Source: Candidatus Hydrogenedentota bacterium
Lineage (GTDB): Bacteria; Hydrogenedentota; Hydrogenedentia; Hydrogenedentales; SLHB01
Assembly (NCBI GenBank): GCA_019695095.1
Contig: JAIBAQ010000044.1
Span: 1-37,058 of the forward strand
Length of the DNA stretch: 37,058 nt
Direction: 5' to 3'
Shown here: positions 22,886 to 28,856 of the stretch, in pieces
Position numbering within the stretch: position 1 is the first letter of the stretch
Layout of the letters: every line of letters begins with the position of its first letter
Made by a program: the position numbers and the translations under genes
The notes under the pieces: model-generated
Database searches by the model: none
What the model saw: the letters and a program-made list of their open reading frames with translations, nothing else
Told to the model about the DNA's origin: nothing

Positions 22886-24103
22886 ATGCAGGCAGTGATC
22901 ATGGCGGCGGGCAAGTCCACGCGCACCTATCCTTTGACTCTCACGCGCCCAAAGGCGTTGCTGAAGATTGCGAATCGGACCATCCTGGAACACCAACTCC
23001 GCGCGCTGCGGGGAATCGCGGATGAGGTCGTTTTAATTGTCTCTTACCTCAAGGAAATGATTGTCGAACGGTTTGGGAATTCCTTCGAGGGTCTCCCCAT
23101 CCGGTATGTCGAGCAGACGGAGCAATTGGGTACGGGCCACGCCATTCTGCAATGCGCGGAAGTCATACGCGGTCCGTTCCTCGCCATGAACGGTGACGAC
23201 CTATACGATCCCAAAGATCTTGCCCGTCTTGCTCAGACCGGCCAAGGCGCGCTGGCGATGAACGTTCCCGACCCGCGGTTGTACGGCATCTATGAAGTCG
23301 ATGCGGAAGGGTGTGCCGTGCGGATCGTCGAGAAGCCCACGGAAATCTTCTCCACACTGGCAAACGTTGGCGCTTACAAGTTTGGGCGCGATGTGTTCGA
23401 CATACTGAAATCGACGCCAAGATCCGAGCGTGGCGAAATCGAGATCACTTCGGCTGTCCAAACTTTGGCGCACCAAGGCCGCTTCAGAGTCGTGGATATG
23501 GAAGGCTACTGGCTGCCCATTGGGTATCCGTGGCATTTGCTTGATGCGAACGCGTATTTCCTTGAACACCTCCTCACTCCGGGAATCGAAGGCGAAGTGA
23601 GTCCGGCTGCGCATCTCACCGGCCCGGTTTACGTTGGACCGGGTTCGGTCATTCGAAGCGGCGTTGTCATTGACGGCCCGGTCTACATCGGCGCAAACGC
23701 CACGATTGGCCCCAACTGCTGGATCCGCCCTGGAAGCACCATAGGTGACCACTGCCGCGTTGGGCATTCGGTCGAAATAAAGAACTCTATCCTGATGGAT
23801 TACGCGGCGGCTCCGCACCTGAGTTATGTCGGCGATAGCGTTATCGGGGAGCATACCAACCTCGGAGCAGGCACAATCACGGCAAACGTGCGTCATGACG
23901 GCGGAACCATCCCGACCGTCGTGAAGGGCGAGACTGTCGACACCGGCCGCAAGAAGCTGGGGTGTATCTTCGCGGACCACGTGCACACCGGGATCAACAC
24001 CTCCATTTACCCTGGCCGCATGTTCTGGCCAAACACGTTTTCATTCCCCGGCGAGGCCGTGCGCAAACATGTCACGGAAACGAAGCGCCTGCCTCAACGT
24101 TGA
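22886..24103 (+). CDS. Sugar-1-phosphate nucleotidyltransferase with left-handed beta-helix (GlmU-like)
   Basis: A 405-residue bifunctional-looking NDP-sugar synthase. Residues 1-230 form the nucleotidyltransferase domain: AAGKSTRTYPLTLTRPKALL near residue 7 is the nucleotide-binding loop and catalytic Lys, and QLGTGHAI and MNGDDLYD follow at family spacing. Residues 235-400 are hexapeptide repeats forming a left-handed beta-helix; HLSYVGDSVIGEHTNLGAG closely resembles the acetyltransferase part of GlmU. It makes an NDP-sugar (possibly UDP-GlcNAc or another N-acetyl/amino sugar nucleotide) for cell-envelope polymers in the cytoplasm. It is shorter than GlmU (about 450) and resembles archaeal-type bifunctional enzymes. 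GGGAGAAA precedes the ATG at 22886. Whether the acetyltransferase half is active is not clear. Confidence 0.85.
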   Translation: MQAVIMAAGKSTRTYPLTLTRPKALLKIANRTILEHQLRALRGIADEVVLIVSYLKEMIVERFGNSFEGLPIRYVEQTEQLGTGHAILQCAEVIRGPFLAMNGDDLYDPKDLARLAQTGQGALAMNVPDPRLYGIYEVDAEGCAVRIVEKPTEIFSTLANVGAYKFGRDVFDILKSTPRSERGEIEITSAVQTLAHQGRFRVVDMEGYWLPIGYPWHLLDANAYFLEHLLTPGIEGEVSPAAHLTGPVYVGPGSVIRSGVVIDGPVYIGANATIGPNCWIRPGSTIGDHCRVGHSVEIKNSILMDYAAAPHLSYVGDSVIGEHTNLGAGTITANVRHDGGTIPTVVKGETVDTGRKKLGCIFADHVHTGINTSIYPGRMFWPNTFSFPGEAVRKHVTETKRLPQR

Positions 24104-24867: not shown

Positions 24868-25951
24868 CCTTCACGGCCTTGGAGAGCAGTGAGAACATCC
24901 GGTTCAGGGGATTCGATTCCTCCGGCATTCCGTCAATCACGGTATCGTTCCATGACATCACGATATCTTGAGACGGAAACACCGCCATCCCGCGCATGCC
25001 GTTGGCGTGACCGAGGGCCGCGAAGACATCTTCTGGTGCGTCGGGCCAATTGCGTTTGCCGTCGCGATCAACGCCATTCACCCACCACATGAACGAGTAA
25101 CTGCCGCCGTGATCGGTTTGGTTGTCGGGAATCTTCTGCGAGCCGATCGTGCGCGCGCCGGGTAGCATGTCCGCGGCCACGCCAGACGTGCGTGGCAGAC
25201 TTGCTGGGAGCGGGCTGGTAACGGCCATACGGGCGTGCTCGCGGCTCAGTAATCGTGTGCCGTTCCAATCGCCTTCGTGAAGGTAAAGATGACCAAAGCG
25301 GGCGAAATCGCGTGGCGATACTCCGAGGCGTCCGACGCGGTCTTCGCCGAACACGCGAAACGTGGGTTCGTCTTCGCAGTGGAGTGCGTCCGTTAATCCT
25401 GCATGCAGTACCTGTTCGTCGACGGTATCGTACGTAGCGCCGTAGACCTTAAGGAACAAGGTGTCGAAAAACAGGGCCGTTTGCCAGTCGTTGTAGTCGA
25501 AAGCGTCGCCGGGTTTCTCGGACACGCCATAGCAGGAGGTCTGCGTGACCAGGTGACGAAATGTGATGGAGGCGTCCTTGTGTCCAAGCGCGGGGTTAAT
25601 ATCTCGCAGCCCCGTTGTGAATTCGGACGCGCGCACATCCATATCCTTCAGCTTACCGGACTCAACGGCGCGAAGAAGAAAGTGGGCAAACCAGGGCTTT
25701 GCCGCGGAAGCCACGTCTCCTGCCTGGGCGACGTCACCCCACGCGTACACCATGCAGCCATGGCGTACGACACACCCCCGGCCCTGGCAGAAATCACGTA
25801 TCGTATCGAGTGTTGCCGTGTCTAGACCGGCTTCCTCGGGAGTACGTTTTTCCCAAGTCGCCCCCGGAAAGACGGCGGATTGTGCATGGCTTTGTGCGGC
25901 CCACAGTGAGGCCGTTGCCCCCGCGAGGAGCAGCAGAATTCTCGTTTTCAA
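24860..25951 (-). CDS. Exported beta-lactamase-fold serine hydrolase (class C / DD-peptidase family)
   Basis: A 363-residue hydrolase of the beta-lactamase-related (PF00144-type) superfamily, acting in the periplasm on amide or ester bonds. After a signal peptide (about 1-24) the nucleophile motif is S82-x2-K85 (in DVASAAKPW), the tyrosine motif Y153-N-D155, and a C-terminal GHANGMRG segment stands where the family has its KTG-like or HxG triad. The start is TTG 25951: a perfect AAGGAGGT lies 4 nt upstream and a signal peptide follows directly, whereas the longer frame to 26113 crosses the divergent promoter. It diverges from the coiled-coil gene (112-nt gap). Likely an esterase or peptidase; not shown to hydrolyse antibiotics. 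Confidence 0.85.
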   Translation of the reverse strand: MKTRILLLLAGATASLWAAQSHAQSAVFPGATWEKRTPEEAGLDTATLDTIRDFCQGRGCVVRHGCMVYAWGDVAQAGDVASAAKPWFAHFLLRAVESGKLKDMDVRASEFTTGLRDINPALGHKDASITFRHLVTQTSCYGVSEKPGDAFDYNDWQTALFFDTLFLKVYGATYDTVDEQVLHAGLTDALHCEDEPTFRVFGEDRVGRLGVSPRDFARFGHLYLHEGDWNGTRLLSREHARMAVTSPLPASLPRTSGVAADMLPGARTIGSQKIPDNQTDHGGSYSFMWWVNGVDRDGKRNWPDAPEDVFAALGHANGMRGMAVFPSQDIVMSWNDTVIDGMPEESNPLNRMFSLLSKAVKEK

Positions 25952-26002: not shown

Positions 26003-26063
26003 CGTCGAAGAGCGAGTCAGAACGCAACTCGTACGCGCTTCGGGAGCGCAGCATAAGGTGAGT

Positions 26064-28856
26064 ATGGGAAACAGTGCAGAAGACATATTTCGCAAACTGG
26101 AGAGCGCCGTCAAAGACTGGAGCTCGGAAGTAAGCAGCGCTTACTCCGGCCTTTCCGAGCGCTTGGATGTTGCGACGAAGCGGGCCGCAACGCCGGAAGC
26201 CGGAGCGGCGTTTGAAGCCCTTTCGGCCTCGTTGGATGCCGCGATGGAGCGCTTCACCACGGTGGAGGGGATGCTCCGGCAAACGAATCAGGCGGCTCGT
26301 CATTCCGTTGCCCGCGTCAATGAGCTCGAACTCGCTATCGATACGGTGCGTCGCGAGGCGGGTGGCTTGCCCACCCCGGCGCAGTTGAACCTGGAAACGG
26401 ACTTGAAGGAACTGGCGAACCGGCTGCAAAACGTAGAGGAAATCGTAAACACACCGGCTCCGGACTTGAGTCCGAGATTCGAAGCGATTGAGGAGCGGTT
26501 GAATCTCATTGCGGCGGCAGTCGCGAATCTGCCCGCTGAATGGACGCCGCGTGTACACGAATTGGAAACGCGCCTCCAATCTCTTGCGGAGGCGATGCCC
26601 AAGCCGGTCCCCGACTTATCCCCCATGCTTCAGGATTTGGCAGTACGCTTGGAGACTGTCGCGGGATCCATACCCAAGCCCGCGCCAGACCTGACTCCCA
26701 AGTTCCAGGAGTTGGACGCGCGCATTAAGGCTGTTGCGGAGTCGATGCCAGAACCGGTGCCTGATTTGACCCCAAAGCTGCAGGAGTTGGCGAGCCGCTT
26801 GAAGACGGTTGCAGAGTCAATACCCAAACCCGCACCGGATCTATCTCCCCAATTGCAGGAATTGGAGGCGCGTCTGAAGTCTGTCTCGGATTCGGTCCCA
26901 AAGCCTGCACCTGACCTGACTCCCAAGTTGCAGGAGTTGGAAGCGCGTTTAGCGACTATCTCGGACTCGATACCCCAACCTGCACCCGATTTGTCTCCCG
27001 AACTTCAGAAACTGGAAGCGCGGTTGCAGTCTGTCGCGGAGAGCGTGCCGAAGCCTGTACCTGACCTCACCTCCAAGATCCAAGTCCTCGCGGCACAGGT
27101 TGAATCCATTGCCGCGGTGGTTGCCAAGCCCGCGCCCGATCCGATCCCCAGGATTCAGTCGTTGGAGGGGCGCGTCGAAACATTGGCTTCTTCTATTCCC
27201 GAAGCTCCTCCCGACTGGACCCCGCGCATTCAGGCGTTGGAAACGCGGCTGGAGTCGGTGGCCGAAGCTGCGGCAGTGCCCGTTCCCGACCTATCCCCCA
27301 AGTTGCAGGGCGTGGAAGCGCGGATGGAAGCGCTGGCCGCTGCGATTGCGCAGACCGCGCCGGAATTCACCTCCAAACTCAAGAACCTCGAGTCTCGCTT
27401 GGAGACGCTCGCTGCAATCGTTGCGCAAACAGCCCCGGATCTCTCGCAGAAGATTCAGACGCTTGAATCCAGGTTCGATTCGGTAGCATCTGCGACGGGC
27501 CAGCCAACCGTCGAGCCTTCGCCACGCTTGCAGACTCTGGAATCGCGTCTTGATTCACTCGCTGCGGCTGTTGCCGGTTTGTCGCCGGATACAGCGACCA
27601 AGCTTAACGCGTTGGAATCCCGGCTTGAAACCGTCGCGTCTTCCATCGTTCCACCGGCGCCGGATGTTACGCCGCGGGTGAAGACTTTGGAAGAGCGCAT
27701 CGAATCCGTGGCCTCGGCTATGCCTGCACCACAACCAGACGTTGAGGCGCGCATCAAAGATTTGGAGGCGAGGCTGGAAATGAGCGTGGCCGAACTGCGT
27801 GCGCAGGCGCATGAAGCAGGGACGGAAACGTCTGCGCTTCCAGGCGCATCCGAATCGCAGTTGAGCGCGCTTCGCGAAGAGATCGAAGAGTCCATGCGTC
27901 AATTCCATTCCGGTATCGACGAGTCATTGGAGGGGTTCCGGAACAACATCGAACGTCTGGCCATTGTTGTCGAGGAAGTCGCGCAGGAATCCGGATTAGG
28001 TACGCCGGCCGCAGCCAGTGAGGCGTTGCGGCAAGATATCGATACCCTGCGGTCCGAAGTGAGCGGAGTGCGACTCGTTTTGTCGCGCCTCGACGACGTG
28101 GCGTCGCGGACGGACGAAGTCCAACGCATGACGGAAGCCGGGCGCGAGCGAACCGAACAAATTGCGCACGATATTCAGTTTGTGCGTGAGTCGTTGCATG
28201 CCGTGCCGAAAGTACACCAGATCGAGAAGTTGGAGCAGGACGTTGCGCGGTTGAGGGCGGAACTGCTGAGGGTCAAGTCCACCGCTGGACGCGGTGACGC
28301 AGCAACTCCCGCTGGCGAACCTGCTGGTGCGGAAACCTACGAAGCAGAAGATACACCGACCGTAAGCGGTTCTCAGGGTTCGATGCTCGACTCGTTGAAT
28401 TTGTCTGGTTTCGATTCGGACGGCCGCCGCCGAAGGCTGGGCGAAATACTTGTCGATTCCGGGATTTTGAGCGGCGAACAGCTTGTCACCGCGCTGCGCA
28501 TGCAGCAGGAACAACCGCAGCGGCGTTTGGGCTCGATTCTCGTCGAGCTGGGATTCACCGAAGATGACGTGGTGGCGCAAGTGCTGGCGTGCCAGCTCAA
28601 ACTGCCCTATCTGAGGCTCGAAACGGACCTGATGGAAGATGCCGCGGTGCGACTAATCAGTGGGCGTCTTGCGCGGCACCATGTATGCATTCCGGTGCGC
28701 GTGTCGGACGAGATGCTGATTCTTGCCATGGCAAATCCACTCGACCTTATCGCGATTGAAGACGTCGAACTCGCCTCGGGACTCCGCGTCGATCCGGTTG
28801 TGGCCAGCTACCCCGACATCGCCGACGCCATCGAGTGGTTCTACGGGCAAGAGTGA
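26064..28856 (+). CDS. Coiled-coil protein with about 17 repeats of 25 residues and a C-terminal MshEN (GspE N-terminal) domain
   Basis: A 930-residue protein. Residues 1-129 are helical coiled coil. Residues 130-554 are 17 repeats of exactly 25 residues (consensus KPAPDLTPKLQELEARL plus a variable SVAESVP-like end), a degenerate 18th following. Residues 580-740 are further coiled coil. After an acidic linker, residues about 788-930 resemble the N-terminal domain of type II secretion/type IV pilus ATPases. It contains two tandem 24-residue motifs with the MshEN c-di-GMP-binding pattern: R791-L-G, L796, G800, L807, L811, Q814 and R821-L-G, L826, G830, V836, L841, Q844. No ATPase domain follows, so it is a stand-alone sensor or adaptor. 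No signal peptide or membrane helix. ATG 26064 is preceded by AAGGTG and a promoter at 25974; the upstream extension of the frame is antisense to the serine hydrolase gene. Function unknown; c-di-GMP binding is inferred. Confidence 0.85.
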   Translation: MGNSAEDIFRKLESAVKDWSSEVSSAYSGLSERLDVATKRAATPEAGAAFEALSASLDAAMERFTTVEGMLRQTNQAARHSVARVNELELAIDTVRREAGGLPTPAQLNLETDLKELANRLQNVEEIVNTPAPDLSPRFEAIEERLNLIAAAVANLPAEWTPRVHELETRLQSLAEAMPKPVPDLSPMLQDLAVRLETVAGSIPKPAPDLTPKFQELDARIKAVAESMPEPVPDLTPKLQELASRLKTVAESIPKPAPDLSPQLQELEARLKSVSDSVPKPAPDLTPKLQELEARLATISDSIPQPAPDLSPELQKLEARLQSVAESVPKPVPDLTSKIQVLAAQVESIAAVVAKPAPDPIPRIQSLEGRVETLASSIPEAPPDWTPRIQALETRLESVAEAAAVPVPDLSPKLQGVEARMEALAAAIAQTAPEFTSKLKNLESRLETLAAIVAQTAPDLSQKIQTLESRFDSVASATGQPTVEPSPRLQTLESRLDSLAAAVAGLSPDTATKLNALESRLETVASSIVPPAPDVTPRVKTLEERIESVASAMPAPQPDVEARIKDLEARLEMSVAELRAQAHEAGTETSALPGASESQLSALREEIEESMRQFHSGIDESLEGFRNNIERLAIVVEEVAQESGLGTPAAASEALRQDIDTLRSEVSGVRLVLSRLDDVASRTDEVQRMTEAGRERTEQIAHDIQFVRESLHAVPKVHQIEKLEQDVARLRAELLRVKSTAGRGDAATPAGEPAGAETYEAEDTPTVSGSQGSMLDSLNLSGFDSDGRRRRLGEILVDSGILSGEQLVTALRMQQEQPQRRLGSILVELGFTEDDVVAQVLACQLKLPYLRLETDLMEDAAVRLISGRLARHHVCIPVRVSDEMLILAMANPLDLIAIEDVELASGLRVDPVVASYPDIADAIEWFYGQE
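26451..27725 (+). repeat. Tandem coding repeat, 17 units of 75 nt
   Basis: Seventeen consecutive 75-nt units with no insertion or deletion encode the 25-residue repeats. They are similar in protein but diverged in DNA, most alike in the middle (about 26600-27050), less so at both ends. The exact phase suggests selection on length. Confidence 0.9.

Follow-up and report, generated by a model that had tools for sequence, protein, structure and literature searches.

In the Vibrio cholerae ATPase MshE (PDB 5HTL; Wang et al. 2016, PMC5013675), c-di-GMP is bound by the MshEN domain, which holds two tandem copies of the 24-residue motif RLGxx(LVI)(LVI)xxG(LVI)(LVI)xxxxLxxxLxxQ, with a linker of 5 residues between them and with contacts to the ligand made by conserved Arg, Leu and Gln residues. 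The same paper gives a range of partners that the domain has outside motors, namely, REC, HD-GYP, CheA, CheX, cyclases, a Ser/Thr kinase and an NfrB-type glycosyltransferase; coiled-coil MshEN architectures are absent from its main text, and, as of 2016, it called the transmission of the MshEN signal obscure. Here, we analysed a stretch of 37,058 nucleotides from a Candidatus Hydrogenedentota bacterium (contig JAIBAQ010000044.1; hereafter, the window), one gene of which encodes a protein with the MshE fold and both c-di-GMP motifs. Unlike in MshE, however, the MshEN domain is C-terminal and sits on a rod with no ATPase, the inter-motif linker has 6 residues, and the second motif departs from the consensus at two positions. 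As in the fusions listed in 2016, the sensor is found outside secretion motors, but its companions in the window protein are only coil and repeats, with no catalytic or receiver domain. Thus, MshEN outside motors was already known, and the rod architecture appears to be a new variation on this theme. Neither this architecture nor the association with a PilZ-transpeptidase protein described below was found in the open-licence papers searched, and the same body of literature returned nothing relevant on PilZ with YkuD, on c-di-GMP in Hydrogenedentes, or on FrgA with DnaA.

An earlier reading, made from the letters of the window alone (the sequence-only reading), had described the protein by itself. 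What it observed within the protein is confirmed almost to the letter, but the protein is one member of a Hydrogenedentota-wide family, in which a conserved helix at the N-terminus, a variable rod and a C-terminal MshEN domain go together with a recurring PilZ/L,D-transpeptidase neighbour.

The product of the gene (Table 1) runs from the conserved helix through a coil, a rod of 25-residue repeats and more coil to MshEN, and terminates where MshEN terminates; the mechanical open reading frame around the coding sequence opens upstream, at 25563. No transmembrane segment was found in the protein (maximum 19-residue hydropathy, 1.35). The T2SSE/ATPase domain (PF00437) is absent among the best 25 of its 55 Pfam matches, in line with the earlier observation that no secretion or pilus ATPase is attached. 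The artefact that could have mimicked this state, and which the sequence-only reading had named as fatal to its case, is an ATPase split off by an assembly error. It is excluded, because the next gene lies on the other strand, 7 bp past the stop, and in other assemblies, too, MshEN is the last part of the protein in dozens of relatives.

Table 1. Features of the MshEN-rod gene in the window, and PilZ-YkuD genes in the same genome and in relatives
Feature	Coordinates	Strand	Basis
MshEN-rod CDS, 930 aa	26064..28856	+	ORF call; SD-like AAGGTG at 26055-26060, upstream of ATG 26064; start position shared with relatives in alignments
Conserved N-terminal helix module, aa 1-47	26064..26204	+	Alignment and profile
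N-terminal coiled-coil-type region, aa 48-125	26205..26438	+	Homologous to rod-less relatives
Rod, 18 phased 25-aa copies, aa 126-575, consensus ESVPKPAPDLTPKLQELEARLESVA, lineage-specific	26439..27788	+	Periodicity; phylum profile search
C-terminal coiled-coil-type region, aa 576-750	27789..28313	+	Heptad-type by eye; aligned with relatives
Polar linker, probably flexible, aa 751-779	28314..28400	+	Sequence reading; poorly conserved among relatives
MshEN c-di-GMP receptor domain, aa 780-930	28401..28853	+	PF05157, NF053729, AlphaFold, Foldseek
c-di-GMP motif I, R791-Q814, RLGEILVDSGILSGEQLVTALRMQ	28434..28505	+	Motif comparison
c-di-GMP motif II, R821-Q844, RLGSILVELGFTEDDVVAQVLACQ	28524..28595	+	Motif comparison
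PilZ-YkuD gene, own genome (contig C185, 8368-9675)	L108:1471-2781
PilZ-YkuD gene, relative	L038:4280-5788
PilZ-YkuD gene, relative	L150:2286-3806
PilZ-YkuD gene, relative	L151:3608-5125

The C-terminal domain is a genuine and complete MshEN domain, on which Pfam, NCBIfam and AlphaFold/Foldseek agree, as the sequence-only reading had proposed. PF05157 matches the C-terminus at 6e-18 (65.1 bits; cut-off 23.1), and NF053729, the MshE-related c-di-GMP-binding model of NCBIfam, spans residues 791 to 844, covering all 53 model positions (49.6 bits; cut-off 38). A PDB sequence search led to PilB and PilF proteins and to MshE (5htl). With 29 family members as input, AlphaFold modelled the domain at a mean pLDDT of 93.5, and Foldseek ranks c-di-GMP-bound MshE (5htl; E 1.2e-11, TM 0.75-0.80) first among the matches of this model. 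The positions proposed earlier for the two motifs are exact, whereas the single conservative change allowed for them has to be amended: motif I fits the published consensus perfectly, but motif II has Thr at position 12 and Val for Leu at position 17, both typical of most family members. The key Arg, Gly and Gln residues are kept in both motifs. This Val replaces a contact residue of MshE (Leu54, the first conserved Leu of LxxxLxxQ in motif II), so that c-di-GMP binding is a predicted, although expected, property of the domain. The genome encodes 15 GGDEF and 11 PilZ matches, so that c-di-GMP signalling is likely present and the nucleotide itself is likely made.

The rod comprises 18 frames of exactly 25 residues without an indel, which bears out the earlier claim that phase was kept with no change of length. 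The 17 repeats counted then are a fair number as well, since three copies, the first two and the last, are degenerate; the Pro-x-Pro-Asp turn said to start each repeat is found in 12 copies, not in all 18. Identities at a lag of 25 residues amount to 192/425, compared to 36.9 ± 5.7 in 2000 shuffles (maximum 59). Where two rod copies have the same residue, they share its codon at a rate of 0.346, against 0.344 expected at synonymous saturation; thus, the copies are old and have been held alike by selection at the protein level. Recent slippage as the source of the rod is rejected on the same grounds.

Hydrophobic residues fall in columns 10, 14, 17, 21, 24 and 28, a 4-3 heptad spacing that stutters once in every 25-residue repeat, and columns 4, 6, 8 and 12 often hold Pro. 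An AlphaFold model of six repeats draws helices of about 14-17 residues with turns of 8-9 residues between them, a picture that is no more than suggestive at its pLDDT of 45. Together, the Pro columns and this low-confidence model suggest helices of 16-17 residues separated by turns, and the rod is probably a chain of short helices joined by Pro-rich turns, not one unbroken coiled coil; coiled-coil-type sequence flanks it on both sides, as had been noted before. The rod stretch also passes the Pfam cut-offs for Baculo_PEP_C (PF04513), DUF1664, ApoLp-III, Exonuc_VII_L, HSBP1, Syntaxin and Spectrin, in overlapping matches. Its assignment to any one Pfam family was rejected, given that dozens of unrelated coil families match overlapping stretches; hence, the likeness, including that to the C-terminus of baculovirus PEP, which has the same amphipathic helical repeat pattern, is probably one of shared pattern and not of kinship.

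The search for the same architecture, in 60 relatives and 84,980 species genomes, uncovered dozens of Hydrogenedentota proteins in which an RLExAIxxW helix is followed by a coil that varies in length and MshEN closes the chain, with no ATPase, all of which are also features of the window protein. Complete-looking members range from about 240 to over 1200 residues. The RLExAIxxW motif of the window protein lies within residues 1-47; Trp19 is invariant across 19 aligned rows, the helix Trp is near-universal in the family, and the helix profile matches 40 of the 60 relatives, in most cases within an ORF that encodes MshEN as well. The nearest relatives of the window protein are those at loci L038-L041 (SH-aLRT 98 for the group; 60-72% identity in MshEN, with L038 the closest at 72%). 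They align with both of its ends without the rod: residues 1-102, for instance, are 37% identical to residues 1-103 of the rod-less L041.

A profile of three repeats (E 1e-8) detected the rod in none of 67 other Hydrogenedentota genomes, that is, in 1/68 in all, the window's own. The 25-residue rod is a lineage-specific elaboration, and the core function of the family, therefore, cannot depend on it. It is the longest repeat rod seen in the family, and other members have tandem-repeat rods of their own, with periods of 34 residues (L070, L071, L075, L077), 21 residues (L057, L062, L064) or 95 residues (L056). Different periods thus sit between the same two conserved ends, which amounts to a natural experiment on spacer length. 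In the coil of the 1275-residue L056 ORF (4656-8483), a second, degenerate MshEN_N-like stretch (RWGDLLCRAGLITGE...PLGKLLEEKNITRED, residues ~545-600) was seen by eye. Among the hits opened outside Hydrogenedentota, most had MshEN fused to an ATPase or to another domain; the exceptions came from 'uncultured bacterium' loci, from a 'Rhodothermaeota' genome that is probably mislabelled and from Omnitrophota, the last as a protein of 174 residues. This was a single scan with one peptide pattern, which distant members may escape.

Flanking ORFs were clustered to find recurrent neighbours. In seven named family loci, the divergent neighbour encodes a protein in which Pfam identifies PilZ and YkuD (L,D-transpeptidase) domains, with a hydrophobic segment, discernible by eye, between them, and in five of the seven, a gene for a BrkB-family membrane protein then follows. 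This PilZ-YkuD protein was searched for in the 60 relatives and its positions were compared with those of the family genes, with several regions read directly. About 32 of the 60 have it, and in 11 of these 32 the family gene lies no more than 6 kb away, always in divergent orientation, compared to 0.1 expected by random placement; the 11 genomes span several families of the order and share ancestry, so that they are not independent events. In genome G030, two other genes separate the pair. Adjacency is lacking in 21 of the 32, in some perhaps through contig breaks. L038 keeps the adjacent PilZ-YkuD gene, whereas in the window's own genome this gene is on contig C185 with no family gene beside it, indicating that the pair was separated in the window's lineage. 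The fusion of PilZ to YkuD through a hydrophobic segment suggests c-di-GMP control of peptidoglycan cross-linking, and the recurrent pairing with the MshEN-rod family points in the same direction. The immediate neighbours of the window gene are a gene with a weak beta-lactamase-like match and one for an alpha-L-fucosidase.

In the best reading of these results, which we consider about evenly balanced between right and wrong, the window protein is a soluble, motor-less adaptor that responds to c-di-GMP in the cytoplasm and serves the remodelling of the envelope. Its N-terminal helix would serve for oligomerisation or for docking to a partner, a spacer of lineage-adjustable length would be formed by the rod and coils, and binding of c-di-GMP to MshEN would switch the contact with a target, presumably in the cytoplasm. 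MshEN is known mainly as a switch on pilus and secretion motors; a family that bears it by itself on the end of a rod uncouples sensor and motor. The protein most likely acts at the cell envelope, in a role with an envelope enzyme, because family genes repeatedly lie beside, and divergent from, the PilZ/L,D-transpeptidase gene, often with BrkB. Support for the adaptor comes from the identity of MshEN with its intact motifs, the likely synthesis of c-di-GMP, the conserved layout, the modular and old rod, and the PilZ-YkuD neighbour. Against it stand the separation of the pair in the own genome, the beta-lactamase-like and fucosidase genes as immediate neighbours in the window, the 21 of 32 genomes without adjacency, the nucleotidyltransferase next to members of another clade (see below) and the pLDDT of the rod. 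The sequence-only reading had spoken of a scaffold or tether rather than a motor: the missing motor stands, and a responsive scaffold or tether fits the whole best, although as a putative role. More tentatively, a two-receptor c-di-GMP system can be envisaged, in which the PilZ protein, anchored in the membrane and with its L,D-transpeptidase domain in the periplasm, would be controlled jointly with the cytoplasmic MshEN-rod protein; repeats particular to each lineage would set the length of the rod, and c-di-GMP would gate peptidoglycan cross-linking directly and locally.

The adaptor reading has two main rivals, both of which we regard as rather unlikely. Under the first, the protein regulates the type IV pilus of its own cell, its free MshEN competing with or joining that of PilB and tuning assembly by c-di-GMP. 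Indeed, MshEN is best known from PilB and MshE, and a cluster of the pilB-pilT-pilS-pilR type lies on contig C7 of the own genome, which also encodes several MshEN ATPases. However, no pilus cluster was seen in the family neighbourhoods examined, in which most neighbours are unannotated, and the protein encoded next to pilB is a different MshEN protein, one with a DnaA-type ATPase.

Alternatively, and with the same low probability, the protein could be a self-assembling cytoskeletal or polar scaffold, with c-di-GMP controlling its assembly and not a specific enzyme. Coiled-coil scaffolds are found in bacteria, as exemplified by AglZ of Myxococcus and FilP of Streptomyces, neither of which is known to carry MshEN; in outline, they resemble the window protein in joining a long coil to a small signalling or docking end. 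The long repeats and coil, the variable length, the conserved N-terminal helix and the lack of an enzymatic domain would all suit such a scaffold, but the spread of lengths in the family is hard to reconcile with one filament geometry, and Pro-rich turns would interrupt a continuous coil.

It is improbable that the protein regulates the supply of surface-polysaccharide precursors. This possibility stems from a gene for a bifunctional sugar-1-phosphate nucleotidylyltransferase/acetyltransferase at 22886-24103 (+) in the window (TIGR03992, 460.7 bits against a cut-off of 292.1), homologues of which immediately precede the family gene in L061, L062, L068 and L073. Yet, the members at these four loci belong together in a different clade (SH-aLRT 81), whereas the window's member groups with L038-L041, so that the tree weakens the enzyme gene as an orthologous link. 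In the window, furthermore, the enzyme gene is three genes upstream, with two genes, one of them on the opposite strand, in between. The presence of the enzyme gene before members of one clade implies that family members may serve different processes. Between the nucleotidyltransferase gene and the beta-lactamase-like gene, the window also has a PagL-like gene (PF09411; 24200-24811, +).

Finally, it is very improbable that the protein arose from a secretion or pilus ATPase by decay and loss of the motor, and that its rod is a neutral expansion of repeats: MshEN is usually fused to such ATPases, but here it is C-terminal and not N-terminal, the repeats are in frame and alike despite saturated synonymous sites, and the conservation of the layout and of both motifs across the phylum largely refutes this reading.

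Several other MshEN proteins came to light. Those with a DnaA-type ATPase (L117:7483-10188, on contig C7 of the own genome; L145:923-3670; L146:1261-4167; L147:1399-4137) have 901-969 residues, with MshEN at the N-terminus, a Pro/Ala-rich, repeat-bearing middle and the ATPase at the C-terminus (PF00308, 4e-53 in the own-genome copy). In the own genome, their gene is followed directly by pilB, and in two relatives it comes before pilB-like ORFs; the product could possibly be a DnaA-like AAA+ protein that belongs to the pilus cluster and is linked to c-di-GMP. The own genome also encodes a Ser/Thr protein kinase with a C-terminal MshEN (L002:541-1920) and a protein in which MshEN is N-terminal of an HDOD domain (L004:1312-2886).
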